Assembly (NCBI GenBank): GCA_947626275.1
Contig: CANQRL010000001.1
Location: 124,001 to 188,000, forward strand
From: an uncultured Bacilli bacterium
GTDB lineage: Bacteria; Bacillota_I; Bacilli_A; RF39; UBA660
DNA length: 64,000 nt
Reading direction: 5' to 3'
Shown here: positions 1 through 60,039 of the stretch, piece after piece
How the letters are laid out: each line of letters begins with the position of its first letter
Position numbering within the stretch: the stretch's first letter is position 1
Notes under the pieces: generated by a model
The model's database searches: none
What the model saw: only the letters and a program-made list of their open reading frames with translations
What the model was told of the DNA's origin: nothing
Position numbers and translations under genes: made by a program

Positions 1-404
1 GTTGTGGCGATGACAACACCAGCGGAACCTGAGATAATCCCACAGATATCCCCAATAACATCCTGACAAAAACTAGATACCTTATTGGCATTTCTCTTTA
101 AAATAACTCCTACTTTGGCTGATTTTATTCCTCTTGAACTCATCGAATGAAGAGGCGCTTCAGCTGCAGTTGCAACAGCCATCCCTACCATATCAAATAA
201 AACACCAATTAAAACAAAGCATAATACAATAATCGAACTAATCAGTAAACTAGCATTTTTCATGGCTACTTCTGATAAAAAGGAGAAAGAAAAAGAAATG
301 GCAAAAGCAAGGATGGTTAGCTTCAAGGACCATTTATAATTTTCCCATTTTTTCCTTTTTTTCTCTTCATATACATCTAGTTTTTTCTTCTCTTTTGTTT
401 TCAA
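1..404 (-). CDS. CNNM/DUF21-like membrane protein, 3' end outside window
   Basis: The frame opens at a TTG at 404 with AGAGGG five bases upstream and runs off the window edge, so only about 134 N-terminal residues are visible. A Lys/Glu-rich start is followed by two hydrophobic segments (about residues 30-70), then a stretch containing AAEAPLHSMSSRG and a Lys-rich turn before another hydrophobic segment. This resembles the membrane domain of CNNM/CorB (DUF21) proteins, which are linked to Mg2+ handling or efflux. No CBS domain can be seen because the C-terminus is missing. It lies 42 bases downstream of the GT2 gene on the same strand. The family call rests on pattern only and could be wrong. 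Confidence 0.5.
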   Translation of the reverse strand, partial: MKTKEKKKLDVYEEKKRKKWENYKWSLKLTILAFAISFSFSFLSEVAMKNASLLISSIIVLCFVLIGVLFDMVGMAVATAAEAPLHSMSSRGIKSAKVGVILKRNANKVSSFCQDVIGDICGIISGSAGVVIAT

Positions 405-446
405 TTTATCCCTCTTAACCACATAGACATTCTACCGAAATTTCCA

Positions 447-1406
447 TTATTTGTCAATGTTAGGAAGGATATCCTCTTCTGTTTCTTTCACGATATAAAT
501 TGGTCTTTTCTTTGTCTCTAAATATGTTTTAGCCATATATTCCCCCATAATACCGGTACAGAAAAGTTGAATTCCACTTAAGAAAAACATAATACAAATC
601 GTGGAAGGCCATCCCGCAACAGGATCTCCCCAAATAAGGGTTTTCGCAATAATCACAATAATGGCAATAAAGGAAACAAAACAGAATAAGATTCCTAAAA
701 AAGCTGCGATTAGCAAAGGTGTGGTAGAAAAACCGACAATTCCTTCAATAGCATACGCAAATAGTTTACGGAAATTGAATTTGGTAACACCTGCATTTCG
801 TTCTTGATTTTCAAACTCAATCCATTTCGTATCGAAACCAACAAAACTAAATAAGCCTTTGGAATAACGGTTATACTCTTGAACTTCTAGAATGGCATCG
901 ACCATTTTTCTTCGCATTAAGCGAAAATCTCTCGCTCCCGCAACCATCTCCACACTAGAAATTTTCGCAATAATTTTATAAAACCAGCCAGTAAAAATTT
1001 TACGAAGGAAAGAATATCCATTACGGCTAACACTTCTCGCCGCCACACAGTCATATCCTTCTTCTTTGATAGATTGATACATCTCGATCAATAATCGTGG
1101 TGGATCTTGTAAATCGACATCCATAATCGTTACATAATCCCCTTTTGCCGCTTTTAAGCCAGCATACATAGCCGCTTCTTTACCAAAATTACGAGAAAAG
1201 GATATGTAATGAATATTTTTCTTCTCTTTAGCAAGTTCGCGCATTTTATCAAGCGTGTGATCTTTTGACCCATCATTGACAAAATAAATTTCATAGGCTA
1301 CATTTTTCATCGTCTTCATTGTCTCATTGACCGCTTCATAAAATGGAAAAATATTTTCTTCTTCATTCATGCAGGGAACGACAATGGAAATTAATTCTTT
1401 TTTCAT
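447..1406 (-). CDS. GtrB-type polyprenyl-phosphate glycosyltransferase (GT2)
   Basis: This 319-residue protein has an N-terminal GT2 domain: VPCMNEEENI near the start, NDGSKD for nucleotide binding and DVDLQDPP as the metal-binding acidic motif. Two C-terminal membrane helices (about 228-255 and 268-290) are followed by the typical KKRPIYIVKE tail. That architecture is the DPM1/GtrB/CsbB class, which moves a sugar from a nucleotide donor onto undecaprenyl phosphate. Its start overlaps the stop of the upstream GT-C gene by four bases (ATGA), so the two are translationally coupled. The lipid-linked sugar is likely the donor for that GT-C enzyme; this pairing is inference. A second GtrB-type gene lies at 15774. 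Confidence 0.88.
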   Translation of the reverse strand: MKKELISIVVPCMNEEENIFPFYEAVNETMKTMKNVAYEIYFVNDGSKDHTLDKMRELAKEKKNIHYISFSRNFGKEAAMYAGLKAAKGDYVTIMDVDLQDPPRLLIEMYQSIKEEGYDCVAARSVSRNGYSFLRKIFTGWFYKIIAKISSVEMVAGARDFRLMRRKMVDAILEVQEYNRYSKGLFSFVGFDTKWIEFENQERNAGVTKFNFRKLFAYAIEGIVGFSTTPLLIAAFLGILFCFVSFIAIIVIIAKTLIWGDPVAGWPSTICIMFFLSGIQLFCTGIMGEYMAKTYLETKKRPIYIVKETEEDILPNIDK

Positions 1407-2914
1407 AAATCCTCCTTCAATTGGTATAGCACATATTTTACAGGCTTATGGTCATATTCCTGATATACCTCATCTACAAATTCATAGTTTTCATTTAAAT
1501 AAGGAATGTGATGATTCCGTCTATCTGTTTTATCTCCTAAGCGAACAACGACAAACTCGACTCTCTTCTCCTTAATCGCTTCTATCTGAGAATCTTTATT
1601 TTCTGGGAATACCTCATAATTGATATTTACTTTTTCAAAATATTTTTCCGTAGGTAAAATATCCGCAACCGTATAAAATCCTCCGTCGATTTTACCATAA
1701 TTTAACAAGGTTGGATGTTCTTCCCGGTTCATAATCTCCGCAAAACGAAACTGAGCTAAATCGCTTTTTTGAAACTTTAAAAAATAAATATTGGGTCCAA
1801 AAGCATAGACAAATATCCATAAAATAGGAATCGTTATAATCACGAGATAACGCGTTGGAAAAATCGTTTTGGTCGCTAGTCTAGCAACAAACAATCCAAA
1901 GAAAACAACAAAAGGCGCCATCACAAAGAAATAATAACGATAGTTCTTTAAACCGATATAGTTGAAAAAGAAGGTAGATAAGAATAGAACAAAAATGGTC
2001 ACTTTGTAACTTCTCTTCAAAACTAGTTTATCTTTTAGAACAAAGAGCAATCCTACCAATAAAGAGAAGGAAAAAATAGCGTTTTCAAAAATATTTCCTT
2101 TAAAAATCTTCCACAATTGATAAAACCGATTTCCTATCGTAATGACTTCTCCCTTATTAGGATAAAGAAAAATATTCAAATAAAAATACGTATGCCATAA
2201 ATCTCCTAAAGCATGATGATATCCAAAATAAAGAAGAAGTGGCAAAGTAATCGTCAACAGTCCTAAGGAGTAATAGAGGATTGCTTGTCCTAACAACTTC
2301 CATTTATGATTTTTGACAAAGAAAATAAAAAGCAAAAAGACAAAACCAATCCAAAACCCTAACAGGATAAATTTCGTCCAAAGTACTATCGCGACGATTA
2401 ATCCTTCAATATAATAAATCTTCCGATTTTCTTCCAAATACTTCTTATCCTTCATAAGAAGTAAAAAGTGATAAAGACTAACTGCAAAACATGGTAAGAG
2501 AAGTTCTTCTACACTCCCACCATGGACAAAGGCTGACATCGTTAAAAGAACTGCCATCACAAAAGGAGAGGCAATATAAAAGCCTTTCTCATAGTGATAA
2601 AGTTTTAAAATTTTATAAAAATAAGATAAGAAAAAGGTCATGGATATTATCTCGATAAGATAAATTCCAAAAAAAGTTTTATGAGATAGAAGATAACCTA
2701 TCCCATAGACAATATATAAAATTGGTCCTTTCTGTTCAAATAAATCTTTGAAGGGAATGAGACCATGAATCCATCCTTTTCCCATCGTAAAAAAAGCATT
2801 CGCATCTACCCAATCATTCATCGCATATAAAGGAGAAGATTTTGTTCCTATCCATAAAAAGAAAGCAGATAGGAAAAGCGAATAAATAACAATTTTTGTT
2901 TTTTCTTGTTTCAT
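1403..2914 (-). CDS. polytopic GT-C-type glycosyltransferase, paralogue 1
   Basis: This protein of about 503 residues has many membrane helices and a short soluble C-terminal part. Near the N-terminus it carries NDWVDANAFF and FEQKGPILYIVYG, a signature of Bacillota membrane proteins related to family 39/GT-C transferases, which use lipid-linked sugars outside the membrane. The acidic residue in the first outer loop would be catalytic. I place the start at the ATG at 2914. A TTG 45 bases upstream is in frame but lies in the -35 box of a consensus promoter, so it would not be transcribed. It is a close paralogue of the next gene upstream; both share a long identical stretch around YHHALGDLWHTYFYLNIFLY. 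Confidence 0.75.
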   Translation of the reverse strand: MKQEKTKIVIYSLFLSAFFLWIGTKSSPLYAMNDWVDANAFFTMGKGWIHGLIPFKDLFEQKGPILYIVYGIGYLLSHKTFFGIYLIEIISMTFFLSYFYKILKLYHYEKGFYIASPFVMAVLLTMSAFVHGGSVEELLLPCFAVSLYHFLLLMKDKKYLEENRKIYYIEGLIVAIVLWTKFILLGFWIGFVFLLFIFFVKNHKWKLLGQAILYYSLGLLTITLPLLLYFGYHHALGDLWHTYFYLNIFLYPNKGEVITIGNRFYQLWKIFKGNIFENAIFSFSLLVGLLFVLKDKLVLKRSYKVTIFVLFLSTFFFNYIGLKNYRYYFFVMAPFVVFFGLFVARLATKTIFPTRYLVIITIPILWIFVYAFGPNIYFLKFQKSDLAQFRFAEIMNREEHPTLLNYGKIDGGFYTVADILPTEKYFEKVNINYEVFPENKDSQIEAIKEKRVEFVVVRLGDKTDRRNHHIPYLNENYEFVDEVYQEYDHKPVKYVLYQLKEDL

Positions 2915-2930
2915 AACTCCCACTGCTCTT

Positions 2931-2959
2931 AGTATAACACATCTAATAGCTTCTTTCAA
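2931..2959 (-). promoter_or_regulatory. SigA-type promoter for the GT-C gene at 2914
   Basis: TTGAAA at 2954-2959 and TATACT at 2931-2936 are separated by exactly 17 bases. The leader would be only about 10 nt, with GGGAG just two bases before the ATG. The -35 hexamer contains the TTG that gives a falsely extended reading frame. Confidence 0.75.
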
Positions 2960-2980: not shown

Positions 2981-4474
2981 TTAAGTTTCTCTTAATTTAT
3001 ATAGGAAATAGGTAACATCCCAAATCTCGTATTTCTGGGTATGAGAGGTAACCAGTTGATATTTTTCTAACAAATTAGATAGATAGCTATCCTCTACCAT
3101 GTCCCCCTCCTCTTTTCTAAAGATTACAAAATCTACTTTTCCTTCTTGAATGGCCTGACGTTGCGCATCCAAATTATCGGGATAAACCGCATAATTAATG
3201 TTAATCTTGGAAAAATATTTTTCACGAGGAAGGATATCGGCGGTTAAATAGAAGCCTGCATCAATTCCTCCATAGTAGAGAATGCTTGGGTTTTCTACTT
3301 TATTGATTTCCTCTAGAAATAAATACTGCGCATAATCTTCTTTTTTTAATGTAAGACTCGAAATATTATCATTCAAGGCATATACACCAAGAAAAGTAAG
3401 GGGAAGAAGAAAGATCAACATAGCATTTTTAATGAGCTGATGTTTCTCACCATAATGAATAATCTCTAACATTCCAAAAACGAGAAAAGGCGCCATGATG
3501 AGAAAGTAGTAGCGGTAACTAACACATCCTAAATAGGCAAAAAAATAAAGTAGAAGAAACAAAAGTGGAAAGGCCCATTTCTTTTTAGAAAGGGATTTAT
3601 CGCGAAAAAGAAAGATAATTCCTAATCCCAAACCAATTGTATAAAAAAGATGATTCTTGAAATTGACGAGTAATAGATAATAGATAATTCCTATCTTTGT
3701 AAGAAGACTATTTTGAGCCATAGACTCTGCATGATATAAGAAAATATTGAGATAAAAATACGTATGCCACAAGTCTCCTAAAGCATGATGATATCCAAAA
3801 TAAAGAAGAACTGGTAGGGTTACCAAAATCATGCCCCCTAAATAACAGAGGAGAAAAGAAAAAAGCTTTTTCCAGTTTTTATTTTTGATGAATAGAATGA
3901 GAAAAAGAAGTCCATACCCTATCCAAAAGCCAAGTAACGTATATTTCATCCAAAGAATCATTCCCGCTAGAATACCATCGATTAAATAATAAATTTTAGC
4001 GTTTTGATAACGATCCTCTTTTAGCAAGAATAGAACATGATAAAGACTAATCATAATAAGAGGTAATGAAAACTCCTCTACCGATCCTCCATGAAAGAAG
4101 GAACGCATAGTTAATATCAGCATTAAAAAAATAGGGGCACTGAGATAAAAACTGTTTTCATAATGATAGAGTTTTAAAATCTTATAAAAAAATACTAAAA
4201 CAAGCGTAAACGCTAAAACTTCTAAGATAAAGATTCCAAAAAAGCTCTGATGAGATAAGAGATATCCTATTCCATAGAGAAAATATAAAATAGGACCTTT
4301 CTGTTCAAATAGATCACGATAAGGAACTAGTCCATTCATCATTCCCTTACCCATAGTAAAAAAAGTATTCGCATCCCCCCAGTCATTTAATACATAAAGA
4401 GGAGAAGACTTCGTTGCTATGAGTAAAAAGAAAAAAGACAGTAGTAAACTATATCCTAAAACACGTTTCTTCAT
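2981..4474 (-). CDS. polytopic GT-C-type glycosyltransferase, paralogue 2
   Basis: This protein of about 497 residues is a paralogue of the gene at 1403-2914 and shares its layout: NDWGDANTFF and FEQKGPILYFLYG near the start, about ten hydrophobic helices, and a C-terminal soluble part that includes IDAGFYLTADILPREKYF. I choose the ATG at 4474, which has AGGTGG four bases upstream. The longer in-frame TTG at 4519 lies inside the -35 box of the gene's own promoter. Each paralogue has its own promoter, so they look like a tandem duplication with separate expression. The sugar and acceptor are unknown; the neighbourhood suggests decoration of a wall polymer. Confidence 0.75.
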   Translation of the reverse strand: MKKRVLGYSLLLSFFFLLIATKSSPLYVLNDWGDANTFFTMGKGMMNGLVPYRDLFEQKGPILYFLYGIGYLLSHQSFFGIFILEVLAFTLVLVFFYKILKLYHYENSFYLSAPIFLMLILTMRSFFHGGSVEEFSLPLIMISLYHVLFLLKEDRYQNAKIYYLIDGILAGMILWMKYTLLGFWIGYGLLFLILFIKNKNWKKLFSFLLCYLGGMILVTLPVLLYFGYHHALGDLWHTYFYLNIFLYHAESMAQNSLLTKIGIIYYLLLVNFKNHLFYTIGLGLGIIFLFRDKSLSKKKWAFPLLFLLLYFFAYLGCVSYRYYFLIMAPFLVFGMLEIIHYGEKHQLIKNAMLIFLLPLTFLGVYALNDNISSLTLKKEDYAQYLFLEEINKVENPSILYYGGIDAGFYLTADILPREKYFSKININYAVYPDNLDAQRQAIQEGKVDFVIFRKEEGDMVEDSYLSNLLEKYQLVTSHTQKYEIWDVTYFLYKLRET

Positions 4475-4490: not shown

Positions 4491-4519
4491 AGTATAACAT
4501 GATTTTTAAGCGAATTCAA
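4491..4519 (-). promoter_or_regulatory. SigA-type promoter for the GT-C gene at 4474
   Basis: TTGAAT at 4514-4519 and TATACT at 4491-4496 are 17 bases apart. It begins only a few bases after the terminator of the non-coding RNA, so the two transcripts are insulated. Confidence 0.75.
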
Positions 4520-4525
4520 GGCACG

Positions 4526-4546
4526 AAAAAAAGGACAAAGTCCTTT
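4526..4546 (-). terminator. intrinsic terminator of the large non-coding RNA
   Basis: A seven-base-pair stem (AAAGGAC / GTCCTTT, three-base loop) is followed by a run of seven T on the minus strand. Confidence 0.8.
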
Positions 4547-5126
4547 ATTTTACTTCGAAAAATGGCGATTAACATAGTTAACTTTGCGTCATAGGTCAAG
4601 CAGAATTTCTCTAGTTTCCACATCACGTTACCATGGTTGCGGTTCCCCTTTAAGAAAACTAATATATTGTTTCCATATATATGGCTTGATTACCACTTAG
4701 TACGCACTGCAATCCTATATTAATGACACTCTAGGAGTTTTCCTCACCAATCGTCTATTGTTAGTTCTTTTTTGCAATATATGTTTCAAATAGCGATACT
4801 TAACTAATTCTAGCTATAAACTAGGTAAGTTGAACAATTATCCCCATATACCACGCAAGACAAGCTACACTACCCATAACTTTCGCCACGCGATAGGTTC
4901 ACGCCATAACTGTATTTTATCAATGGTAAAACACATGGTATGGTCTCCATGAATGCTGGGTCATTTGCGTATGCCATTACGGACGCCCAACACTCTACCT
5001 TCCAGCATCCACCCCAAACTGGGCGTAAGAAGCAAACACCAGAAGTTTCACAGATGTGCTCTTTAACAGCGTTTTAATTCTGTCTTCTCAATAGACATTA
5101 TTGACTAGAATAATGTGCCACCAACG
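4526..5126 (-). ncRNA. large structured non-coding RNA of about 600 nt, class unknown
   Basis: There is no credible reading frame across these 600 bases, which lie between a TTGACA-N17-TAAAAT promoter and an intrinsic terminator. Clear helices can be drawn: a 5' hairpin (5096-5102 with 5109-5115); a 7-bp GC-rich helix (5020-5026 with 4983-4989); and a 9-bp helix with one G-U (5002-5010 with 4951-4959) that crosses it and so would form a pseudoknot. Shorter hairpins such as CCATATATATGG follow. I see no hallmarks of RNase P RNA, tmRNA, 6S or a T-box. Size, gut-Bacillota flavour and lack of a fixed protein partner would fit ROOL; OLE RNA is similar in size, but no OapA gene is nearby. The class call is a guess; that it is a structured transcript is much firmer. 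Confidence 0.75.
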
Positions 5127-5132
5127 AGTATC

Positions 5133-5161
5133 ATTTTATCAAATTTAACAGAAATTGTCAA
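5133..5161 (-). promoter_or_regulatory. promoter of the large non-coding RNA
   Basis: TTGACA at 5156-5161 and TAAAAT at 5133-5138 are 17 bases apart. The start of transcription would be near 5126. It lies 40 bases past the end of the TagD-like gene, after which no terminator is visible. Confidence 0.8.
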
Positions 5162-5202
5162 ATTTATACTACTATATGATACGTCTTCAAAAGAAATGAC
5201 AA

Positions 5203-5610
5203 TTATTTATCACTAGTATATTCATCAATATGTTTACGGAATTCTGTAGAAGACCAAGTATAAGGACGTTTGGTATAAGCCACCTCACAGTATTTTCTTA
5301 AAGATTCAAATCTCTCGTCACCTTCCCAATCGCTTCCCATTACTAAAAGATCTACGCCGTATTTTTTAATATCATCTGGTTTTTGATCCCATTCTTTTTC
5401 AGGAATAACCTCATCTACATATTTAATTGCTTCTAAGACAAATTTTCTCTCTTCATAGGTCAAATATGCCTTTTTATGCTTAATAGCATTAAACTCGTCT
5501 GTGGATACTCCCACAATGAGATAGTCTCCCATGGCTTTTGCATCTCTTAAATGTTCAATATGTCCTGGTGTAATTAAATCATAGGTTCCATACGTTAAAA
5601 CTTTTTTCAT
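5203..5610 (-). CDS. tagD: TagD-like glycerol-3-phosphate cytidylyltransferase with altered motifs
   Basis: This 135-residue protein matches TagD in length and sequence (MKKVLTYGTYDL at the start, STDEFNAIK, YVDEVIPEKEWDQK, VMGSDWEG). TagD makes CDP-glycerol from CTP and glycerol 3-phosphate for teichoic acid synthesis. Two signature motifs differ from the Bacillus subtilis form as I recall it: the HxGH nucleotide-binding motif reads TPGH (residues 14-17), and the RTEGISTT region reads RPYTWSST. The bases confirm the TPGH reading. It overlaps the upstream TagF-like gene by four bases (ATGA) and so belongs to the tagB-tagF-tagD operon starting at 8082. It may be a diverged subfamily, a changed substrate or reduced activity. 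Confidence 0.8.
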   Translation of the reverse strand: MKKVLTYGTYDLITPGHIEHLRDAKAMGDYLIVGVSTDEFNAIKHKKAYLTYEERKFVLEAIKYVDEVIPEKEWDQKPDDIKKYGVDLLVMGSDWEGDERFESLRKYCEVAYTKRPYTWSSTEFRKHIDEYTSDK

Positions 5611-6908
5611 TTTATCACTCCTTTAAATATTTCAGCAATTACTCGTTCACTGGCATGCCCATCATCTAAATAATTAAACTTTTTATTAAACTTTTCATAC
5701 TTCTTTTGATATTTTGGAAATATCGTATCAATATTTTCCAAATTGTATTCCAATTCTTCTTGGGTTTTAGCAATTGGTCCAGGAAGTTCATCCAGAGAAA
5801 TGTAAAAGTCTCTTAAATTTCCTTTATAATCATCATAATCATACATATAAAATAACATTGGTCTTTTTAAATTCGCATAATCAAAGAAAACACTAGAATA
5901 ATCCGTCATAATGATATCACTCGCTAAATACAATTCATTAATTTCATCATAGTGCGCAACATTAATAATAAATCCTTTATATTTTGATAAGTCAATGGTA
6001 TTAGCAATAAAATAATGAGGGCTGAATAAAATAACATACTTCTTACCAAATTTCTTCTTTAATCGATCAAAGTCGATAGCTAAATTATAGGTATACCCTA
6101 CCCCAGAGGTATGTTGATTATCGCGAAAAGTAGGAAGATAAAAAATAGCTTTTTTCCCTTTTGGAATTCCTAACTTCTTCTTAATAGCCTCGATATCTTC
6201 TTTTGACTTTCCAAATAGAAAATCATTTCTAGGATATCCTTTTTCAATCATGATGTCGCCTTTTCCCAAAGCTTTTAAATTAAAAGCGGAAGTAAATTTC
6301 TCGGTACAATACTTAGAAGGAGAAATAAAAAAGTCAAACCGAGAAGCATCAATATCATTTCTTTTTCTAATTTCTTCTACCGTATTCAAAACCGCTCCAT
6401 TTACTTCAATATCATATCTTAATCGTTTTAATGGCGTTCCATGCCAACATTGGACATAGATTTGATTTTCCTTTTTTTCAACTGCTTCTGGCATAATAGA
6501 ATTTACAATCCAGTACTTCGCCATAGAACAATATTTATAATAATCATCAGAACCACTTTTCACAATTTCTAAGTTTTGAAAAGGAGCTACTTCGTGATCA
6601 GCTGGATTGGTAAACGCCCACACCATCTTATAGTCTTGAAATTCATCCATAGTAATCATTTTTTCATAAATTGCCTTTGGCGAGCAAGTATAGTTTCTTC
6701 CTCCAAAAGCTTCAAAGAGAATAAGATGATCATCTACTTCATATTTATTATAAAATTTTTTATAGCGGCTAGACCTTTCCATGGCCATTCCTTTCCGCAT
6801 AATTTTACGTAAAAACTTGCTTTTCTTTGCCACATCCCCAGCAATTTTTTTTGCCTTTTTCGTAGCTTTTTTAGTTATCGAACTTTTCGAATTTTCCATT
6901 TCACTCAT
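5607..6908 (-). CDS. TagF/TagB-family CDP-glycerol glycerophosphotransferase
   Basis: This 433-residue protein has the hallmarks of the CDP-glycerol:polyglycerophosphate transferases: WHGTPLKRL with the first catalytic-type His, FSPHYF with the second, and TDYSSVFFDYANLKRP, which binds the CDP-glycerol phosphate. The first 40 residues are very Lys-rich and probably sit on the membrane surface, as these enzymes act on lipid-linked acceptors. The ATG at 6908 has AAGGAG seven bases upstream. It overlaps the preceding gene by eight bases and the tagD-like gene by four. It either primes or extends a glycerol-phosphate polymer; sequence alone does not decide which. Confidence 0.87.
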   Translation of the reverse strand: MSEMENSKSSITKKATKKAKKIAGDVAKKSKFLRKIMRKGMAMERSSRYKKFYNKYEVDDHLILFEAFGGRNYTCSPKAIYEKMITMDEFQDYKMVWAFTNPADHEVAPFQNLEIVKSGSDDYYKYCSMAKYWIVNSIMPEAVEKKENQIYVQCWHGTPLKRLRYDIEVNGAVLNTVEEIRKRNDIDASRFDFFISPSKYCTEKFTSAFNLKALGKGDIMIEKGYPRNDFLFGKSKEDIEAIKKKLGIPKGKKAIFYLPTFRDNQHTSGVGYTYNLAIDFDRLKKKFGKKYVILFSPHYFIANTIDLSKYKGFIINVAHYDEINELYLASDIIMTDYSSVFFDYANLKRPMLFYMYDYDDYKGNLRDFYISLDELPGPIAKTQEELEYNLENIDTIFPKYQKKYEKFNKKFNYLDDGHASERVIAEIFKGVIK

Positions 6909-8082
6909 ATAAACACTCCTTTATTAATTTCATGATTTCTTCTGTACTGCTTTTTATATTAGGAACGTATTTTGCCTTAAATGCTTTATATTCTTTTTCA
7001 TCATAAAGATTGTTCAAAATGGTCTCAACAATTTTTTTACCAGATTTAGAAGCGAGATGAGGGTAATCCTCTAATAAATGGATATTAAGTCCATTATCCT
7101 CTTCATACTTTTCATAATCATAAACATATAACAATATTTTTTTATTGGCTACGGCGGCATCTATCATTAAAGCCGAATAATCGGTAATTACATAATCGAC
7201 CATTTTTACAATATCAAAGGTAGAAAATTCTTCCCGATCAATCACTAAGATTCGATCATCCGCAATACTATTCTCCACTTTAGGATGGAATGTTATAAGC
7301 AAATTGGCTTTTTCAAAGTCAAAATATTTTACTAATTCTTCTAAATTTTGGCGTTTATCATTGCGAAACGTAGGAGAATATAAAACATTGATTTTCTCTT
7401 TCATAGATGGATATTTTTTTGCTATTTTAGCAGCTATTTTTTTATCTTTCATTCGCATATAATCAACCGTCGGGGTTCCAATCGGTAACACTTTCTCTTC
7501 GTTTACATGAAAGGCTTCTGCAAAAAATGGATTCATTCCAACACTGCCAGATAAAACGTAGTCATAATTTGCATGCATCTTTAGAATTTTAGCAACTTTT
7601 GGAGAAATACCATCTTTTCTTCCTATCGTTTGATAACCAAACTGTTTAATAGCTCCTAACGCATGCCACATTTGAATGACTTTTGTTCCTTTTTTATGTT
7701 TTAATAAACTAACTGGTAAATTGTAGCCATCGACAATGACAACTTTGGATTGCGCAATATATCGCATTTGTTTATATAAGTCAAAATAATAGCCAAGAGC
7801 AGAGTGAAAATGAGAAAATGTTTTTTTCAAAAAAGAAAAAGTATTAGAATAATTTCCCTGCGTTCTAATGCTATCATTAATATTAGCATTTACCTTTTTA
7901 CAAATAAATTTATAAGGAATTTTTTCATCCTCTAGCCTCTTCATGATTGCTTGATAATTGAGTGATGGTTCATCAAATTGTCGACTCAAAAAGAAGACTT
8001 GATTTTTTCTTCTATGGAGAAGTTTGATAAAAAAATAAACCGAAATCAAATGTATTTTTAGCAAGTATAAAAAGATTGTCAT
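6901..8082 (-). CDS. TagB-like CDP-glycerol glycerophosphotransferase
   Basis: This 393-residue protein starts with a hydrophobic segment (about residues 1-20) and then shows the glycerophosphotransferase motifs: MWHALGAIKQFG, where HA replaces the HGTP of TagF as in TagB-type primases, TFHPKV with the second His, and TDYSALMIDAAVANKK. It is the first gene of a three-gene operon (this gene, the TagF-like gene, tagD) led by a good promoter at 8102-8130, and GGAGA precedes its ATG. A TagB-like role, adding the first glycerol phosphate to the lipid-linked disaccharide, fits the motif variant but is inference. Confidence 0.82.
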   Translation of the reverse strand: MTIFLYLLKIHLISVYFFIKLLHRRKNQVFFLSRQFDEPSLNYQAIMKRLEDEKIPYKFICKKVNANINDSIRTQGNYSNTFSFLKKTFSHFHSALGYYFDLYKQMRYIAQSKVVIVDGYNLPVSLLKHKKGTKVIQMWHALGAIKQFGYQTIGRKDGISPKVAKILKMHANYDYVLSGSVGMNPFFAEAFHVNEEKVLPIGTPTVDYMRMKDKKIAAKIAKKYPSMKEKINVLYSPTFRNDKRQNLEELVKYFDFEKANLLITFHPKVENSIADDRILVIDREEFSTFDIVKMVDYVITDYSALMIDAAVANKKILLYVYDYEKYEEDNGLNIHLLEDYPHLASKSGKKIVETILNNLYDEKEYKAFKAKYVPNIKSSTEEIMKLIKECLYE

Positions 8083-8132: not shown

Positions 8133-9086
8133 CTATTTCCTCTTTCCATGGATTTGCGGCTTTAACAACCAATAAGATTTCCAGTAGTAATAAAAGTGTG
8201 TATTTTTAAAATAAAAATTGTGGTGCCACTGAGAATCAAAAGAATTTAAAAGGGAAAAAGATTCATCCACAAATTCTTTTTTAATTGGTAATTCCTTCCA
8301 AGTAACCTTCGTATTAAAACGAGCAAAAATATGTTTTAAAAATATATAAGTTAAATACTCTTTGGGAATCGCATCGCCATAATATTCTATCAATAAGGAA
8401 GCAACATCAAAGAAAGCAAAATATTTTTTCGAAAATCCTTGCGTTAGAGAAGTCCCATCATCACGGGTAACATAGAAATATAAAGGTTCAAAAACTTTGG
8501 ATATCTTATTAGCCCATCGATAAGTTTTATAGACAAACAATAAATCTTCAAATACCTTATGGCTTGTAAACTCGATATGATTCTTGAAAAGGAAGTCTCT
8601 CTTATAAATATGAGCCCAACAGAAAACAGTCGATTTCACGATAATATCCGGATTTTCTACTACGCTTTCATCAAAGCCGTCTACTTTCTCCGTTCTCTTT
8701 TCTTTTAAAGTGTTTCCGGTAACCGTATAATAACCACAAGTAACAACATCGGAATGATTTTTTTTCGCTTGTTGATACATTTTTAAATACATATCTTGAT
8801 CTACATAATCATCACTATCAACAAAACCAATATATTCTCCTTTGGCCTTCCTTAATCCTACATTTCTAGCGTTTCCTACTCCACCATTTGGAATTTCAAT
8901 CGATTGAATGAGATTAGGATATTTTTTTTGATAAGATTTAATGATTTTTTTACTGTTATCCGTAGAACCATCATTCACAAGAATAATTTCTATTTCTTTT
9001 AAACTTTGAGAAACGAGAGAATCAAGACATTTCGCTAAATATTTCTCTACGTTATATACTGGTACAATTATTGAGACTTTTACCAT
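8133..9086 (-). CDS. GT2 glycosyltransferase
   Basis: This 317-residue soluble protein is a family 2 glycosyltransferase with a GT-A fold: VSIIVPVYNVEKYL at the N-terminus, NDGSTDNS, and DSDDYV as the acidic metal-binding motif. No membrane helices are apparent. The C-terminal third is rich in aromatic residues, as in capsule and teichoic acid side-chain transferases. A TATAAT at 9107-9112 lies just upstream but without a convincing -35 box. The preceding gene ends in a terminator, so this gene is probably transcribed alone. The sugar it transfers cannot be read from the sequence. Confidence 0.85.
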   Translation of the reverse strand: MVKVSIIVPVYNVEKYLAKCLDSLVSQSLKEIEIILVNDGSTDNSKKIIKSYQKKYPNLIQSIEIPNGGVGNARNVGLRKAKGEYIGFVDSDDYVDQDMYLKMYQQAKKNHSDVVTCGYYTVTGNTLKEKRTEKVDGFDESVVENPDIIVKSTVFCWAHIYKRDFLFKNHIEFTSHKVFEDLLFVYKTYRWANKISKVFEPLYFYVTRDDGTSLTQGFSKKYFAFFDVASLLIEYYGDAIPKEYLTYIFLKHIFARFNTKVTWKELPIKKEFVDESFSLLNSFDSQWHHNFYFKNTHFYYYWKSYWLLKPQIHGKRK

Positions 9087-9128: not shown

Positions 9129-9155
9129 GAAAAAAGAGGGAGATTTATTCCCTCT
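9129..9155 (-). terminator. intrinsic terminator of the GT2/TagF fusion gene
   Basis: A seven-base-pair stem (9135-9141 with 9149-9155) is followed by six T on the minus strand. It overlaps the last codons of the gene. Confidence 0.75.
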
Positions 9156-11808
9156 CTGCCAATTTCAAAATTTCTTCATAAATTCTTTTACAATTATTTT
9201 GATCGATATATTCGTAGAATTTTTCAATTCTCTTCTTATATTTTTCTTCCAAGATACAATCGTTTTCAATCGCCTTAATAATCGCATCTACCGTATCTTC
9301 TAAAGTAAGCGTTACTGGTCCCATACCATCCTTATCATAATCATAAAATCCCTTATCGTAAATTTGACCAGCATAGAAATCCTCTCGATCAAATTGACAA
9401 AAAATGACTGGCTTTTTTAAATAACAGAAGTCGAAGGCAACACTAGAATAGTCTGTTACTAACAATTTGTTTTCCTTAAACTCATGGCTATATTTTACAT
9501 TATCTACTAAAAAATCTACATACTCATTTTTTTCAAAATCAGAAATTTGAGCTTTCATATTATTATGTGGAATAAATTTAATACGATAGCCTGCTTTCTT
9601 CACTGCCTTAATTAAACGCTTATCATTAATTAGACTATTATAGAACTTAAAATATTCCGTCTGTTTAAACTTGCTATTATAGAAAATTTCTCCTGTTTGC
9701 CTATTCGTAACTCCTGCCAATTTCGTCCGCCAAGTTGGCATAATGAGGATTTGTTTTTTAAGATCACAATCCTGTTTCAGTAACTTATCATAACGAGCAA
9801 GTCCCGTTAGCTTTACCCACTCTTTTGGAAAGCCATAACAATAGTTACCAGAAGAAATAGAACGATATTCTTCTTTAGCGCAAGTAATAAACAAATCAAT
9901 GATAATGCTGTTAATATTTAACCATGGCGATAAATCATCTTTCGTAATTCCATGTTGTAAAAAGACGTACTTAAAACGATATAGATCGGATAAATAGTAC
10001 TTTCCCTTTCCAAACAAATTAATGACAATTTGATCGGCATGAGCAGATACAATTCTATCCGCATTCAAATGTAACAATTTATGTCTAAAAGAATTATAGC
10101 CAATTACGTTCTTATACTTTGCTTTTAATTCCTGATAACTTTTCGTATTCTTCGAAATAGCGAAGTAAAATTTTCGCTTCTTATCGTGAATCGTATTCAA
10201 ATATTCGAAAAAGGCTTGTCCATTATCTTCTGCCGCCGCTACTCGGTCAGATAAAATCCATATTTCTTTTCGTTTGAAGGCACCAAGAACTAAAGCTAAA
10301 AAGCGATAAATAAAACTCTTGAATTTCTTTTCTTTTAAAATGCCAACCAAACAAGACGTTTCTAATTTGATAGAATTTTTAAACCCTTTTTTATAGATGG
10401 AAAAATGATTATCAAAAGCACGAACATAGTAATCTTTGGCACGTAAATAAAGTTTATCAAACTCATTATTAAAATGGCAATGATAACTAAAAGTTAAATT
10501 CAAACCAATCCGTTTTTTTCCTTTTACCCCATACAGTGACAAACATTTTGAATCGGATAAATCGATAGAAAAATGAAATCCTTTGGTTGGAAAATTTAAT
10601 TCTTTTTGTATGGCTAGGAAATTTTTAGCTGTCGTTGCTAAATCATAATGCTCGCAGGAAAACGTCTTCCCCTTCTCATCTTCCATCACAACATCTTCTA
10701 AAACATGAGGAATAAGCGGTAACTTTCCATAAATTTGCATAACATTTTTTTCGATAAAAACAGTATCAATGGTAACTGGCAAATTAGAAAAATCGCAAAT
10801 GGTAGAATCCTCGATAGAAACGGTATGATCTTTTAATTGATATACCTTATTATCCTGATGCTTAAAGTTTAAAAAGTAGAGTCTCTCATGCATTTTCATC
10901 ATTGAGAAAGAAGCAATTACCTCATCATCTAAAAACTTCATGGTATTTAAAAGTAACTTATAATATTGATTCGCTTCTTTCTTTGATAAATAATTTTTAG
11001 GGTCCGTACTTAACCGCCAATGTAAGTCATAAATCAATATATATTGCACGTATTTTAAAACTTTCCCATATTTTTTTATCGATAGATCAATTATTTCTTG
11101 CCAGAAATACTTAGGAATATCCAAATACCAGGTTGTATCTGTCAAAAGAGATTGCATAGTAGAAGATTGATTCTTTCGTTTTCGATAGTTGTAATTACAA
11201 TCAGAAATCATGATATTAATGGGATTCTCTAAAGCAATTTCCGTAACTAATTTGGAATCTTCCGCTACTTTTAATGTTTGCGAAAAAGAATGATTTTCTA
11301 AAACGGTTCTTCGAAATAATATAGAACAGCTACTCATTTTAATAAGGGAATAATCTTCACGAATATCATAACGTCTCGTTTTCGTAAACATGGGATGCAA
11401 TGTATGGAAAGCTGTAGACCCTTCAAAATACTTCATTGGGTAGATTGCAAATCCTGTTTCTGGATACTTTTCTAAAAGAGAAACACCCTTTTTAAAAGCT
11501 TCTTTATCCCATTTATCATCACTATCTAAAAAGTTTACATACTTACCAGTCGCATACCGTAAGCCGTGATTTCGAGCAGCAGAAACCCCCGCATTCTCTT
11601 GTTTAATATAAACCACATTATCTGGATATTTCTCCTTATATTCTAAGCAGATTTTCTCACTATTATCCGGAGATCCATCATTCACTAAAATTAATTGAAT
11701 TTTATCGAATCCGAGGGTTTGATGGATAACACTTTCAATTGTCTCTCTTAAGTAATTTTCTACCTTGTATACGGGAATAATAACCGACACCGTAAAAGAC
11801 TTATTCAT
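9145..11808 (-). CDS. bifunctional GT2 glycosyltransferase / glycerophosphotransferase fusion
   Basis: This 887-residue protein joins two enzymes. Residues 1 to about 220 are a GT2 domain (VIIPVYKVENYL, NDGSPDNS, DSDDKW). Residues from about 530 are a CDP-glycerol glycerophosphotransferase domain with FLQHGITKDD, KFIPHNN and TDYSSVAFDFCYLKKP. The middle section (about 330-500) is a beta-rich stretch I do not recognise, perhaps the TPR-poor linker seen in large Tag/Tar polymerases. Such fusions build repeating units in which sugar and glycerol phosphate alternate, which suggests a glycosylated polyglycerol-phosphate polymer here. The gene has its own promoter at 11841-11869 and its own terminator. 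Confidence 0.85.
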   Translation of the reverse strand: MNKSFTVSVIIPVYKVENYLRETIESVIHQTLGFDKIQLILVNDGSPDNSEKICLEYKEKYPDNVVYIKQENAGVSAARNHGLRYATGKYVNFLDSDDKWDKEAFKKGVSLLEKYPETGFAIYPMKYFEGSTAFHTLHPMFTKTRRYDIREDYSLIKMSSCSILFRRTVLENHSFSQTLKVAEDSKLVTEIALENPINIMISDCNYNYRKRKNQSSTMQSLLTDTTWYLDIPKYFWQEIIDLSIKKYGKVLKYVQYILIYDLHWRLSTDPKNYLSKKEANQYYKLLLNTMKFLDDEVIASFSMMKMHERLYFLNFKHQDNKVYQLKDHTVSIEDSTICDFSNLPVTIDTVFIEKNVMQIYGKLPLIPHVLEDVVMEDEKGKTFSCEHYDLATTAKNFLAIQKELNFPTKGFHFSIDLSDSKCLSLYGVKGKKRIGLNLTFSYHCHFNNEFDKLYLRAKDYYVRAFDNHFSIYKKGFKNSIKLETSCLVGILKEKKFKSFIYRFLALVLGAFKRKEIWILSDRVAAAEDNGQAFFEYLNTIHDKKRKFYFAISKNTKSYQELKAKYKNVIGYNSFRHKLLHLNADRIVSAHADQIVINLFGKGKYYLSDLYRFKYVFLQHGITKDDLSPWLNINSIIIDLFITCAKEEYRSISSGNYCYGFPKEWVKLTGLARYDKLLKQDCDLKKQILIMPTWRTKLAGVTNRQTGEIFYNSKFKQTEYFKFYNSLINDKRLIKAVKKAGYRIKFIPHNNMKAQISDFEKNEYVDFLVDNVKYSHEFKENKLLVTDYSSVAFDFCYLKKPVIFCQFDREDFYAGQIYDKGFYDYDKDGMGPVTLTLEDTVDAIIKAIENDCILEEKYKKRIEKFYEYIDQNNCKRIYEEILKLAERE

Positions 11809-11874: not shown

Positions 11875-13281
11875 TTAAAATCTAAAATAGATAAATGGAT
11901 TATAACTATTATTAATAAGATAAAGTATGCAAAGGACAAATAGGACTAATAGTCCTATATTGGAAAGAATTTTCTTTCCAAATTCACTAGACATTTTATG
12001 GTCCATCCATTTCACAATTGGAAAACTACATAGAAAAGCAATTGGTATATAAAAGACATAATTTAATAAATAATAATTATGCGCAATATCCATCCATAAA
12101 TCGCCTTTCTTGAGTGAAAATAGATTAGAAAATAAAGTGAATAAATTTTGAACATTCTCTACCCTAAAAATTAACCATCCTAAATTGATAAATAGGAAAG
12201 CATAACACCAACGTATGATTCCAGGAAGACGATCTAAGAACTTCTTTAAGAATAGTTTTTCAATTAATAATAGGACGAAGAAATACAATCCCCATATAAT
12301 GAAATTCCAACTAGCTCCATGCCATAGACCAGTAAGGAACCAAACGACAAATAGATTAAAAAGCCAACGTAATTTAGAGCAACGATTACCTCCAAGAGGA
12401 ATATATACATAGTCACGAAACCAAGTCGATAAAGAGATATGCCATCTCCGCCAAAAGTCTGTGATACTCTCAGAGATATAAGGATAATTAAAGTTCTCTA
12501 AGAAATCAAATCCAAACATCTTTCCAAGTCCAATCGCCATATCACTATAACCAGAAAAATCAAAATAGATTTGGAAAGTATAGGATAAAATAGCGCTTAA
12601 AAGAATCAAAAAGCCATATTCTGTAACATGCGCACTATTAAAAATCGTATCGGCAATAAGAGCCATGTTATTCGCAATAATTACCTTCTTCCCTAGTCCA
12701 ATTACAAATCGTTTCAACCCACTTGTAAACTTTTCTAAGGAATGATCTCGCTTTTTTAATTGCTCTTCAATCGTACTATAACGGACAATTGGTCCAGCAA
12801 TTAATTGTGGGAACAAGGAAATATAGGTTCCTAGAGTAATGATATTTTTCTGTACCCCTACTTCTCCCCTATATACGTCGATAACATAAGATAGAATTTG
12901 AAAAGTATAAAAACTAATTCCTATCGGTAACGCTAATTCCAAAGAAGCAAGACGAAGATGGAAAAGAGAGTTTACAATATCAATTAAAAAGTTCGCATAT
13001 TTAAAGACAAATAACATGAAAATGTTAAATACTATCGCTAAGATAAGGAGTCCTTTTTTCTTCATTCTTTGGTTTTTAAATTTATCAATGAAAAGAGCAA
13101 TGATATAATTGACGATAATGGATACCATCATCAAAACGATGTATTTTGGCTCACCCCAAGCATAAAAGAGAAAAGAAGCAATGCACAGAATAACATTCTT
13201 ATATTTTTCTTTTGCGATATAGTAAAGTATTAATAAAATCGGTAGGAAGAAAAAGAGAAAAGTCAAGCTACTAAACAACAT
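11875..13281 (-). CDS. MBOAT-family O-acyltransferase (AlgI/DltB/PatA-like)
   Basis: This 468-residue protein has about ten membrane helices and the MBOAT signatures: FWRRWHISLSTWFRDYVYIP and TGLWHGASWNF, the latter with the invariant His of the acyltransferase site. MBOAT proteins pass acyl groups across the membrane onto surface polymers or peptidoglycan. The start, with GAGGTAG seven bases upstream, lies three bases past the stop of the DHHW gene, and an SGNH hydrolase gene precedes that, so the three genes form the membrane, accessory and hydrolase set usual for AlgI/AlgJ-like O-acetylation. The acceptor is probably the polymer made by this locus (inference). It could equally be a DltB homologue, but no dltA or dltC is visible. 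Confidence 0.88.
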   Translation of the reverse strand: MLFSSLTFLFFFLPILLILYYIAKEKYKNVILCIASFLFYAWGEPKYIVLMMVSIIVNYIIALFIDKFKNQRMKKKGLLILAIVFNIFMLFVFKYANFLIDIVNSLFHLRLASLELALPIGISFYTFQILSYVIDVYRGEVGVQKNIITLGTYISLFPQLIAGPIVRYSTIEEQLKKRDHSLEKFTSGLKRFVIGLGKKVIIANNMALIADTIFNSAHVTEYGFLILLSAILSYTFQIYFDFSGYSDMAIGLGKMFGFDFLENFNYPYISESITDFWRRWHISLSTWFRDYVYIPLGGNRCSKLRWLFNLFVVWFLTGLWHGASWNFIIWGLYFFVLLLIEKLFLKKFLDRLPGIIRWCYAFLFINLGWLIFRVENVQNLFTLFSNLFSLKKGDLWMDIAHNYYLLNYVFYIPIAFLCSFPIVKWMDHKMSSEFGKKILSNIGLLVLFVLCILYLINNSYNPFIYFRF

Positions 13282-19074: not shown

Positions 19075-20388
19075 TTACATCTCTTTTTCCATATGTTTTT
19101 TTACCTTTGCTACATAGATTAATAGGAATACAATAATGAGGAAACTAGAAGCACTTAAAAGAGCAATCAAAAGTAGAAAGCGCTCATTTTTTAAGGTTAA
19201 TGCTTCCATTTGACTATTATCAAACTTCTGCAAAGTCCTCTCTTCTGCATCATAGGAATACCAGTTCGTTTTTCCTGTTTCAATATTGATTCCATAAATT
19301 AATGGATAGGTATCATTTTTAGAAGTATAAATTGGTACTTCCCGTAAATCAATTATAGTAGTCTTCTTCGTTTCATAGCCTTTTGGAATATCTTCCTTCT
19401 TTGGTGTTAAAACAAAAATCGTAATGCCATTAAATGTGGTTTCTTGATAAGGAATATATCCCCCATTTTCTTCCATCTTGAAGAAAGATATTTGTCCTTC
19501 TTTATCCTTAAGAGCTATAATGCGATATCCAGTGATTTCCGATTCAAAAATAGGGACTTCTTCTTCCTCGATAAAGGTTGTCGATTCGGTAAAAGTCGAA
19601 GGAATGGATAATCCTTCTGTCTTTCTTAAAACCGTATATTCTTCCCCATCTACGGTGACATAAACCGGATTCAGTTCTTTCACATGAATATTGACGACAT
19701 AATCTTTGGTCGTACCATTTTCCGCAATGACACGAATCTTAAATTGGTTATCTCCCTCTGTTAGTTGCTTGACGCCTGTTCCATTAATGCTCGCTTTAGA
19801 ATCTTCTGCTTTGGCATTAATCTTTACGGATTCAACACCGTTTTCTAGTTCTAGCGAATATTCTAGCGTATCTTTTGAAAATTTTGGTTGGAGTTCATAA
19901 CCATCTACACTAAGACTACTTAAGTTATTGTTTTTAGAGTAGCTAGCTTCTAATTGTTGTTGGGTAATAAGATTGAAGGTATAACTACCATTCGAAGAGG
20001 ATAGTTCTGCTTCTCCATAGCTATATACCAAAGAGTTTGCTACCCATACCTTCGCGCTTCCAGATGCTTTTGCCCGAAAAGTAATGGTGTAAGTTTTACT
20101 TTTGGTACTTCCATTAGGAGCGTATCCTACAGATCTAGTACTTCCCTCTAAGTTAGAACTGACAAATGTTAGCTTAGAAGAATCGTATTTCACATCAAAA
20201 CTCCAACTACCTAAATTCGTCGAAGAAGAAACGGTAATTGTCGCTCTTACTGTATTTCCAACGACAACTGTCTTATTAGCACCTGTAACACGAATACTCG
20301 CACTAGCTGCATGTGCCCGCGATGTTGGAAAGAATAGAAATAAACCAATGACGAAAATAAATAATAATCCTTTTGGCATTCTTTTCAT
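19075..20388 (-). CDS. membrane-anchored cohesin-domain protein
   Basis: This 437-residue protein has a signal peptide ending near AHA at residue 27. A cohesin-type domain (about 30-140) follows, with GSWSFDVKYDSSKLTFVSS and the beta-sandwich pattern typical of cohesins. A cadherin-like beta-sandwich domain (about 155-235) contains YSLELENGVESVKI and a GTTKDYVVNIHV end. A long outer region leads to a C-terminal membrane helix (about 403-425) and a short basic tail. Cohesins bind dockerins. The gene just upstream in the same operon, 11 bases away, encodes a secreted enzyme ending in a dockerin, so this is very likely its surface anchor. GGAGGGG precedes the ATG. Confidence 0.8.
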   Translation of the reverse strand: MKRMPKGLLFIFVIGLFLFFPTSRAHAASASIRVTGANKTVVVGNTVRATITVSSSTNLGSWSFDVKYDSSKLTFVSSNLEGSTRSVGYAPNGSTKSKTYTITFRAKASGSAKVWVANSLVYSYGEAELSSSNGSYTFNLITQQQLEASYSKNNNLSSLSVDGYELQPKFSKDTLEYSLELENGVESVKINAKAEDSKASINGTGVKQLTEGDNQFKIRVIAENGTTKDYVVNIHVKELNPVYVTVDGEEYTVLRKTEGLSIPSTFTESTTFIEEEEVPIFESEITGYRIIALKDKEGQISFFKMEENGGYIPYQETTFNGITIFVLTPKKEDIPKGYETKKTTIIDLREVPIYTSKNDTYPLIYGINIETGKTNWYSYDAEERTLQKFDNSQMEALTLKNERFLLLIALLSASSFLIIVFLLIYVAKVKKHMEKEM

Positions 20389-20399
20389 GATACCCCTCC

Positions 20400-22481
20400 T
20401 TATTTTTGACTAATATAGCTTGTTCCCAATAAATGTTTTTGAACTTTTAATAAATCCAAAATGGTCACTTCGCCATCCTTGCTGACATCGGCAGCCTCTT
20501 TATAAGCTCCTGTTAAATTAGATGTCTTTAGTAAGTATTTTTGAACCTTTAATAAATCTAAAATGGTAATTTGTCCATCGCCACTCACATCGCCATAAAG
20601 AACAACTGTAAAACTTTTTGTCTCTTCTCCACTGGTAATGGTAACGGTATCACCCGTTATGAGATTGCCAGAAGTCTTTTCTTTACTTCCATCTTTTACC
20701 GTAACTTTAGCAGTAGAAGAAGCCTTTAAAATCTTTTCTTTGAAATCCGATACCTTAGTCGTTAACGTAAGATTTACGATATAGTTATTTCTGGTAGAGA
20801 CTTCGGCTTTCTTTAAAATTTCTTCTACTGTTGGATAAACAATTTCTCCCTCATCTACTTTTTCTTTTCGGTTAATCGTAATCGTATAGTCTTGAATATC
20901 GCCATTTTGAGCCTTTACCTTAACCGTAATTTTATTATCTCCTACATCTAGAGGAACCGTTCCCGTTCCCGTTACCGTAGCAGCAGAAACAATTGGGGTT
21001 GCCCCAATAGAAACATTTTCCTTTTCGTATTCAACAACCATTTGATAATCCATTTTAGAAGAAGCAAATCCTTCTACTTGCGTACCATCCACCGTCAACT
21101 TCTTTAAACGATTGTTAGGATTTCCAAGAGGTGGTAAACTAGATACTTCCTCTGGCATATTCTTATAGACAGGAATATGAAACTCTAAAGCAAAATCGAG
21201 TAAGCCAATACTAGCATACGTTCTAAAGGTTTTATCTGCTTCCGTCGTAGGTGCTTGAATATTTGTCATATATTGATGGTTATAATAACTAGGTCCTACA
21301 ATATCCCACTTTTGCGTATATCCCGTATTTTGACCTACCGAAATATATCCACTGGAAAGGAAGTTTGCTCCTCCAGCAATCGCACTTTGAGGAGTATTCC
21401 ATGGTCTTCCATAGGTTTTACTCTGCGAAGTTAGATCAGAACTATATCCCGTAGCATAGAAAAGTCCTCTATCCGTTGCGCCTTTTCCATCGGTTGCTCC
21501 AATATTGAAAAAGTTATAATAACCAGAAAAAGTCTTGGTTTCTGTTTTTCCCGTTTTCGGATTTTGATAAGTATAGGTAAACTCTTTTCCACTTACCATT
21601 TTCGTTGGCGTCGTGCTCGTTCCAATTTCTTGACGAGAACGAGCCGCTAAGAAAACAGCATTGATGTTATACTTTTTTCCAGCATCGACAAAATCCTGGG
21701 CGAATGTACCGATATAGGCATTTCCTAAAAGATTGGTAATTGCCTCTAACGTCTGTAATTCTTCATTAAAACTTAAGTATTCAAATTGGAAAACATACAT
21801 ATCGATTAAAAAGTTTCGAGGATCCAAATAGTAGGCAATCGTCGCATCATTTGCCGCATGCCAATTACTACCATCATAGACTTTAAATGTATTCGTATCC
21901 CAATTATAATGTTCTGGTTTTGTCGATAAGTAGCCTTGGGTAGAAGAACTCGTCGATTGAATTAAACTCTTCGAACCTTTTTCATTTTCTAAGACATCTT
22001 TCCACTCCAAATTAGTTTGAACAGCTACAAATTTCCATGTCGGATGAGCTTCTTTTAGAATCGCTAAAGATTCCCAATAGCTCTCTGGAAAACCAGCCTC
22101 TGTAAATTCTTTTTGCAATTCTTCACTGATTTTTGCAATATGAAGATTATCCGTACATAGCCATCCTTTATAATCCTTATTTCGTGTATTGACATTGACA
22201 TAAGAAAAAGTTGTCTTACATTCACTACCATTTCCACTGGTTGGTGCAGGAACTGGGGCTTTACTTGATAAAACCGTAACTGGATCTCCTGTATCTACCC
22301 AAAAGACATTGTTTACTAACTCTTGAAAAGTCGTATCTTTATAAAAACAGTTTCCGGTTGAATTACTCCTTAAATCACAAGTTCCGGTTGCGATAAATTT
22401 AGCCTCATAATCAGCCAAAACATTCTTAGGCAATAGGAAAAAAACAAATAGAAAACCAAATAGGAAAATTTTTCGTTTCAT
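20400..22481 (-). CDS. secreted glucosaminidase with C-terminal dockerin
   Basis: This 693-residue protein begins with a signal peptide ending in VLA (residue 23). Residues 24-115 look like an SH3-type wall-binding region. Residues about 125-455 match LytG/GH73-type glucosaminidases, with ARSRQEIG placing the likely catalytic Glu at 285. A cadherin-like domain (about 460-545) follows, then a linker domain, and from residue 629 a type I dockerin: two calcium-loop repeats, GDVSGDGQITILDLLKVQK and ADVSKDGEVTILDLLKVQK. It would cut the glycan chains of peptidoglycan while held by a cohesin. The next gene on the transcript encodes a membrane-anchored cohesin. A TATAAT lies upstream near 22507, without a clear -35. 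Confidence 0.85.
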   Translation of the reverse strand: MKRKIFLFGFLFVFFLLPKNVLADYEAKFIATGTCDLRSNSTGNCFYKDTTFQELVNNVFWVDTGDPVTVLSSKAPVPAPTSGNGSECKTTFSYVNVNTRNKDYKGWLCTDNLHIAKISEELQKEFTEAGFPESYWESLAILKEAHPTWKFVAVQTNLEWKDVLENEKGSKSLIQSTSSSTQGYLSTKPEHYNWDTNTFKVYDGSNWHAANDATIAYYLDPRNFLIDMYVFQFEYLSFNEELQTLEAITNLLGNAYIGTFAQDFVDAGKKYNINAVFLAARSRQEIGTSTTPTKMVSGKEFTYTYQNPKTGKTETKTFSGYYNFFNIGATDGKGATDRGLFYATGYSSDLTSQSKTYGRPWNTPQSAIAGGANFLSSGYISVGQNTGYTQKWDIVGPSYYNHQYMTNIQAPTTEADKTFRTYASIGLLDFALEFHIPVYKNMPEEVSSLPPLGNPNNRLKKLTVDGTQVEGFASSKMDYQMVVEYEKENVSIGATPIVSAATVTGTGTVPLDVGDNKITVKVKAQNGDIQDYTITINRKEKVDEGEIVYPTVEEILKKAEVSTRNNYIVNLTLTTKVSDFKEKILKASSTAKVTVKDGSKEKTSGNLITGDTVTITSGEETKSFTVVLYGDVSGDGQITILDLLKVQKYLLKTSNLTGAYKEAADVSKDGEVTILDLLKVQKHLLGTSYISQK

Positions 22482-59881: not shown

Positions 59882-59957
59882 TGGCGCCTGATGTAGGACT
59901 CGGACCTACGACCTGCCGGTTAACAGCCGGATGCTCTACCAACTGAGCTAATCAGGC
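59882..59957 (-). tRNA. tRNA-Asn (GUU), copy 2
   Basis: A full cloverleaf of 76 bases with encoded CCA can be drawn. The acceptor stem is GCCTGAT / ATCAGGC, the anticodon loop CTGTTAA gives GUU, and the T-stem is GTAGG / CCTAC. Position 55 in the T-loop is C (loop TCCGAGT) instead of the nearly universal T, and positions 27 and 43 do not pair. The body is identical to the copy at 59964; only the acceptor stem differs. Confidence 0.93.
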
Positions 59958-59963
59958 AACGAA

Positions 59964-60039
59964 TGGCGCTCAATGTAGGACTCGGACCTACGACCTGCCG
60001 GTTAACAGCCGGATGCTCTACCAACTGAGCTAATTGAGC
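59964..60039 (-). tRNA. tRNA-Asn (GUU), copy 1
   Basis: A full cloverleaf of 76 bases with encoded CCA. The acceptor stem is GCTCAAT / ATTGAGC; all else, including the C at position 55, equals the copy at 59882. It lies directly after the T-box terminator, so its transcription is under the control of that riboswitch. Confidence 0.93.

Follow-up and report, generated by a model that had tools for sequence, protein, structure and literature searches.

The window analysed here, a stretch of 64,000 nucleotides from a contig of an uncultured Bacilli bacterium, holds close to its left edge some 600 bases devoid of genes in the midst of genes for wall-polymer synthesis, and the question that this locus raises is which RNA these bases encode and what it might do in such company. 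A sequence-only reading had described positions 4526-5126 as a gene-free interval encoding a large structured RNA, with a promoter and a terminator of its own, inside a teichoic-acid-type locus, and this description proved right; the region 4520-5202 has no credible protein gene, the longest open frames being 31-45 aa. As to class, ROOL or a new class had been suggested, together with a search using the ROOL, OLE, GOLLD and HEARO covariance models. When the whole window was scanned against all Rfam families, OLE, one of the four named, was found on the minus strand (RF01071, 384.4 bits against a gathering cut-off of 50 bits, E = 2.1e-109), and the match spans model positions 1-616 of 616, i.e., it is full-length. 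A permissive scan of the interval alone returned no Rfam family except OLE at E <= 1, and the ROOL covariance model, too, gave no match to the interval at that threshold. We conclude that the interval is very probably the ole gene of an uncultured Bacilli bacterium with a small genome and a further example of a known RNA class; the earlier observation of the sequence was mostly right and its guess at the class was wrong. The genome (a 1.4-Mb assembly in 30 contigs) contains a single OLE copy, and OLE was found in 23 of the 57 relatives searched, all 23 belonging to the same family.

The integrity of this copy was assessed in an alignment of 51 distinct OLE RNAs that was built without structure. 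The closest relatives are 88% identical to the window's OLE over aligned positions, and the latter keeps 171 of the 171 columns that are conserved at >=97% in the 50 relatives. Standard pairs are present at 138 of its 153 modelled pairs. With the Rfam structure placed on all 51 RNAs, 87.7% of cells were standard pairs in comparison to 36-47% in slid versions, changes on both sides were seen in 117 of the 153 pairs, and the covariation score was 0.440 as against 0.193 for shuffled and 0.09-0.12 for slid versions; since the structure tested was that of the known family, this covariation confirms membership and is not the discovery of a fold. Folding gave a minimum free energy of -165.5 kcal/mol, with z = -2.3 relative to 20 shuffles. 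The arms of the P7-P8 region are short, and the score of 384 bits is slightly below the 390 of the 'full-length' class of one paper, which was set with another model and is not directly comparable. The L9.3 loop is self-complementary (AGCU inside UAGCUA), and a simple pattern count found 4-nt palindromes in the L9.3 loop region of all 51 rows, with GGCC the commonest; GGCC, GAUC and AGCU are the published alternatives for this dimer contact (PMC12286853).

Both ends of the putative transcript carry recognisable signals (Table 1). The claim that TTGACA-N17-TAAAAT bounds the interval was borne out on the minus strand with a match of 11/12 (hexamers at 5161-5156 and 5138-5133, the second preceded by TG), which places the predicted transcription start near 5126, and the seven-base-pair terminator with its T run was likewise confirmed (AAAGGAC-TTT-GTCCTTT followed by TTTTCG), so that the transcript would probably run from about 5126 to about 4530. 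Within the window's first 8.2 kb, the two best promoter matches are those of ole and of oapA, the gene for OLE-associated protein A. Taken by themselves, promoter-like and terminator-like patterns occur in shuffled sequence at least as often as in the region; the promoter and the terminator nonetheless recur at the same place in relatives. Of 76 distinct loci, nearly all have a near-consensus promoter immediately before OLE, its -10 box some 26-37 nt ahead of a CUAGUC motif, and an intrinsic terminator, identified by a strict rule, follows OLE at 30 of 83 loci, most of the genus among them, compared with 0.24% of shuffled flanks. In the genus oapA mostly has its own TTGACA-N17-TAAAAT or TAGAAT promoter; in relatives outside the genus ole leads straight into oapA, leaving a second promoter little room, if any. 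In H. halodurans, ole forms part of a large operon and has a promoter of its own as well (PMC9723947).

Table 1. Features of the ole-oapA region, in window coordinates.
Feature	Position	Strand	Remarks
oapA, 5' part	1..422	-	OLE-associated protein A type; 198 aa; remainder left of window
oapA promoter, TTGACA-N17-TAGAAT	429..457	-	Similar promoter in G003, G005, G007, G009, G010, G011
Family 2 glycosyltransferase, third intervening gene	447..1406	-	319 aa; best NCBIfam match PgfS, below cut-off
Paralogous membrane protein, second intervening gene	1403..2959	-	518 aa; 49% identical to first
Membrane protein, first intervening gene	2981..4474	-	No Pfam/NCBIfam match
ole intrinsic terminator	4530..4546	-	7-bp stem, 3-nt loop, T run
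OLE RNA (RF01071)	4546..5137	-	Covariance-model match, conserved columns, covarying structure in 51 sequences
ole promoter, TTGACA-N17-TAAAAT	5133..5161	-	11/12 match; near-consensus promoter at same place in relatives
TagD-like glycerol-3-phosphate cytidylyltransferase	5203..5610	-	TIGR01518, E 7e-44, below equivalog cut-off; directly upstream of ole
TarF-like glycerophosphotransferase	5607..6908	-	PF04464
TarB-like glycerophosphotransferase	6901..8082	-	PF04464
Family 2 glycosyltransferase	8133..9086	-	
Two-domain protein, family 2 glycosyltransferase + glycerophosphotransferase	9145..11808	-	PF00535 + PF04464
MBOAT O-acyltransferase, same polymer locus	11875..13281	-	

The protein partner of OLE, OapA, appears to be encoded close by. 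The oapA gene occupies G000:C1:123826-124422, so that only its first 422 bases fall at the left edge of the window, and OapA is single and intact in its own genome (E 1e-89, G000:C1:123835-124413) and encoded in 12 of 12 genomes of the genus. The family consists of membrane proteins of about 170-230 aa, found after ole in 20 of the 23 loci that were retrieved; its resemblance to CNNM is weak (E 0.11), in line with what has been published for OapA (PMC11332333), and a comparison by sequence with solved structures gave no match. Three lines of evidence speak for the putative assignment to OapA: synteny, co-occurrence and the weak likeness to CNNM. A scan of public genomes with the OapA-family alignment, from which 80 loci were retained, showed OLE upstream on the same strand in 75, at <=200 nt in 71 of those 75 (distances of about 1.2 kb, which arose for the most part because open frames extended back into ole, were not used); for the five loci without OLE nearby, it was on another contig in three genomes and none was found in two. 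One OLE-oapA locus (L089) is filed under a Methanosphaera assembly, most likely through a binning error.

In the window oapA does not directly follow ole, and three genes and 4.1 kb stand between them. The first of these encodes about 497 aa from an ATG at 4474, or 512 aa from a TTG at 4519, and has a homologue (62%) at the same place in the sister species G009, where all three genes recur in unchanged order at 58-83% identity. In G001 one such membrane protein and the glycosyltransferase precede oapA, with ole on another contig. Given that the window's species, G009 and G001 form one clade in the OapA tree (support 100/99), a single origin of the split arrangement in this three-species clade would be the simplest reading. 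The two genes are on different contigs also in G014 (= G095), G092 and G093, so that their linkage can be lost. In a member of another genus (L092/L137, on G070:C10) ole and oapA are separated by one gene of 330 aa, with MBOAT, glycerophosphotransferase and TagGH-like genes in the surroundings.

The genes upstream of ole resemble those of a teichoic acid pathway, and several of the enzymes score below curated equivalog cut-offs, too low to specify the polymer exactly. Behind oapA come the genes for an ABC permease and a TagH-like ATPase, together a TagGH-like exporter, and then folD, a gene that is near ole in three Clostridia and has been retained downstream in the window's genome. It was a fair remark that the position between tagD and wall glycosyltransferases is notable, and it can now be refined, in that ole and oapA are themselves split by wall-type genes. 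Of the 10 genus genomes where ole could be placed, 6 have glycerophosphotransferase genes no more than 10 kb away from it, with only 1-6 such matches per genome, and the TagGH-like exporter directly follows oapA in most of the genus and is near oapA in G070. Outside the genus, G070 is alone among some 35 oapA-bearing family genomes in having a glycerophosphotransferase within 10 kb, and in G082 one is about 14 kb away; a family-wide link was not found beyond these two and was given up. Weak TagH matches in 27 of 75 loci were mostly low-scoring generic ABC ATPases and were left out of the counts. The wall-polymer setting of ole thus holds for most of the genus and not for the family, and shared descent is a sufficient explanation of the association within the genus. 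Cell-wall genes (dltE, yqhY) have been reported among the commoner neighbours of ole (PMC12265935), and the OLE literature searched had no mention of OLE RNA and teichoic acid together.

Two further observations concern other parts of the window. At 19075-22481 (minus strand) a gene for a cohesin-domain protein adjoins one for a dockerin-domain protein, both with cadherin-like domains, and homologous pairs occur near ole or oapA in G001, G008 and G009. At 59882-60296 (minus strand) a T-box leader stands immediately before a pair of near-identical tRNA-Asn genes, behind which come gatC, gatA and gatB, so that both tRNA-Asn and the amidotransferase seem to be under T-box control; a similar arrangement is known in Clostridium.

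With respect to the other OLE partners, no L7Ae-type protein (OapC family) was found in the 12 genus genomes, and in the window's own genome there was neither a recognisable OapB-type protein, the KOW matches being L24, encoded in the ribosomal operon, a protein the size of NusG and two weaker matches within large frames, nor a CNNM/MpfA protein above the cut-off. Five sister species have a CNNM protein. As the genome is estimated to be 93% complete, absence of these partners is likely and not certain. OapB is found in about 60% and OapC in about 45% of OLE hosts, neither being obligatory, and reduced-genome gut clades with OLE and OapA and without OapB or OapC have been described (PMC11332333). 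The absence of an MpfA-type protein fits its published anticorrelation with OLE.

Several other readings of the interval were weighed against these data. That it represents ROOL or a new large RNA class held by a pseudoknot of two crossing helices, as originally proposed, has its size on its side, and both complementary pairs are indeed present and exact, TGGGCGT/ACGCCCA (5020-5026 with 4983-4989) and a second of 9 bp with one G-U (5002-5010 with 4951-4959). In the 51 OLE RNAs, however, the crossing helices pair in 79.0% of cells and their shuffled counterparts in 78.4 +/- 0.3%, double changes affect 4 of their pairs where 3.2 are expected, and most of their bases partner in other, covarying Rfam OLE helices, with which the proposed helices compete. 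In three relatives (L035, L039 and L041) GGG/CCC has changed jointly to GGA/UCC, tracking the Rfam helix, and the loop proposed as the alternative partner stays unchanged. The pseudoknot is thus unsupported and was discarded, since its covariation does not exceed that of shuffles; the invariant GCCC/GGGC complementarity, taken as a putative tertiary contact, is neither supported nor excluded. Given in addition that OLE matches end to end, with no other family at E <= 1, the ROOL or new-class reading is refuted by the covariance-model search and has hardly any probability at all. A decaying relic, stranded as polymer genes entered between ole and oapA, might be suspected from the loss of adjacency here and from the location of the two genes on different contigs in the sister species G001, but pseudogene status was rejected because every strongly conserved position is intact; the largely standard pairing, the intact promoter and terminator, the presence of only one ole copy and the single, intact OapA also speak against it and make decay very improbable. 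Equally slight is the chance that OLE acts as a cis leader controlling the membrane-protein and glycosyltransferase genes downstream: the next gene, which has the same orientation, does begin 27-70 nt after ole, yet a strong terminator follows the RNA, a further promoter-like site (TTGAAT-17-TATACT, 4519-4491) precedes that next gene, and in almost all relatives the downstream gene is oapA instead.

The remaining alternative gives the OLE particle a direct job in the synthesis or export of a teichoic acid-type wall polymer in this genus, so that co-location would reflect function. The frequency of glycerophosphotransferase genes near ole in genomes with so few of them, the placement of the TagGH-like exporter, the reported dltE and yqhY neighbours and a membrane-spanning OLE model in the literature are all points in its favour. 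Against these stand the common ancestry of the genus members, whose cases are not independent, the near absence of such genes around ole in the rest of the family, the separate transcription unit of ole, and an upstream gene content that varies by species, as is usual along the margins of variable polysaccharide islands. On balance we consider such a job unlikely. The more specific proposal that the OLE-OapA particle of this gut Bacilli genus acts on the assembly and export of wall polymer at the membrane, or is attuned to these processes, with the repeated placement of polymer synthesis and TagGH-like export genes next to ole and oapA and between them as the genomic trace of this, is in our view decidedly doubtful.

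The reading that we prefer is that of a known RNA class in an unusual gene setting, which is possibly informative. The strong housekeeping promoter would start an RNA of about 600 nt near 5126 that would end at the terminator near 4530, take the OLE fold and pair with a second OLE molecule through conserved loops such as L9.3. This RNA would bind OapA, made from its own promoter 4.1 kb downstream, to give a membrane-bound OLE ribonucleoprotein; the dimeric, OapA-bound membrane particle is inferred from the H. halodurans literature and the cryo-EM dimer. Since OapB-, OapC- and MpfA-type proteins were not found, the window's OLE is probably an OapA-only particle, which would carry out the stress and metal-balance job of MpfA-type proteins elsewhere. 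In H. halodurans, OLE particles help against cold, alcohol, high Mg2+ and poor carbon sources. As a feature of the genus, the ole-oapA pair adjoins genes for the synthesis of wall polymer and for a TagGH-like exporter. Since ole and oapA belong to separate predicted transcription units, polymer genes could enter between them, an insertion that may have happened once, in the ancestor of the three species. OLE is among the largest bacterial RNAs without a known biochemical activity, and a lineage with all conserved positions, OapA and an ole-oapA split, and without OapB, OapC or MpfA, would be a natural minimal particle. The wall-polymer setting adds a testable hint to the earlier reports of cell-wall genes near ole, one that shared ancestry within the genus may explain.

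Compared with the known systems, the window's OLE is like that of Halalkalibacterium halodurans and Clostridium acetobutylicum in its full-length match, conserved positions, covarying helices, palindromic L9.3 loop and own promoter, and in having a genome-encoded OapA and folD nearby; it differs from them in the three wall-type genes between ole and oapA, the shorter P7-P8 region, the separate predicted transcription units of ole and oapA, the teichoic-acid-type locus and the lack of a found OapB or OapC. With ROOL RNA it shares the character of a large structured non-coding RNA of gut Bacillota, whereas the ROOL model has no match in the window. The Variant 1/2 OLE RNAs of reduced-genome gut Bacillota (TANB77 and RF39 clades), whose bit-score classes were set with another model, are similar to it in small genome size, in shortened arms, and in the presence of OapA where OapB and OapC were not found (PMC11332333).
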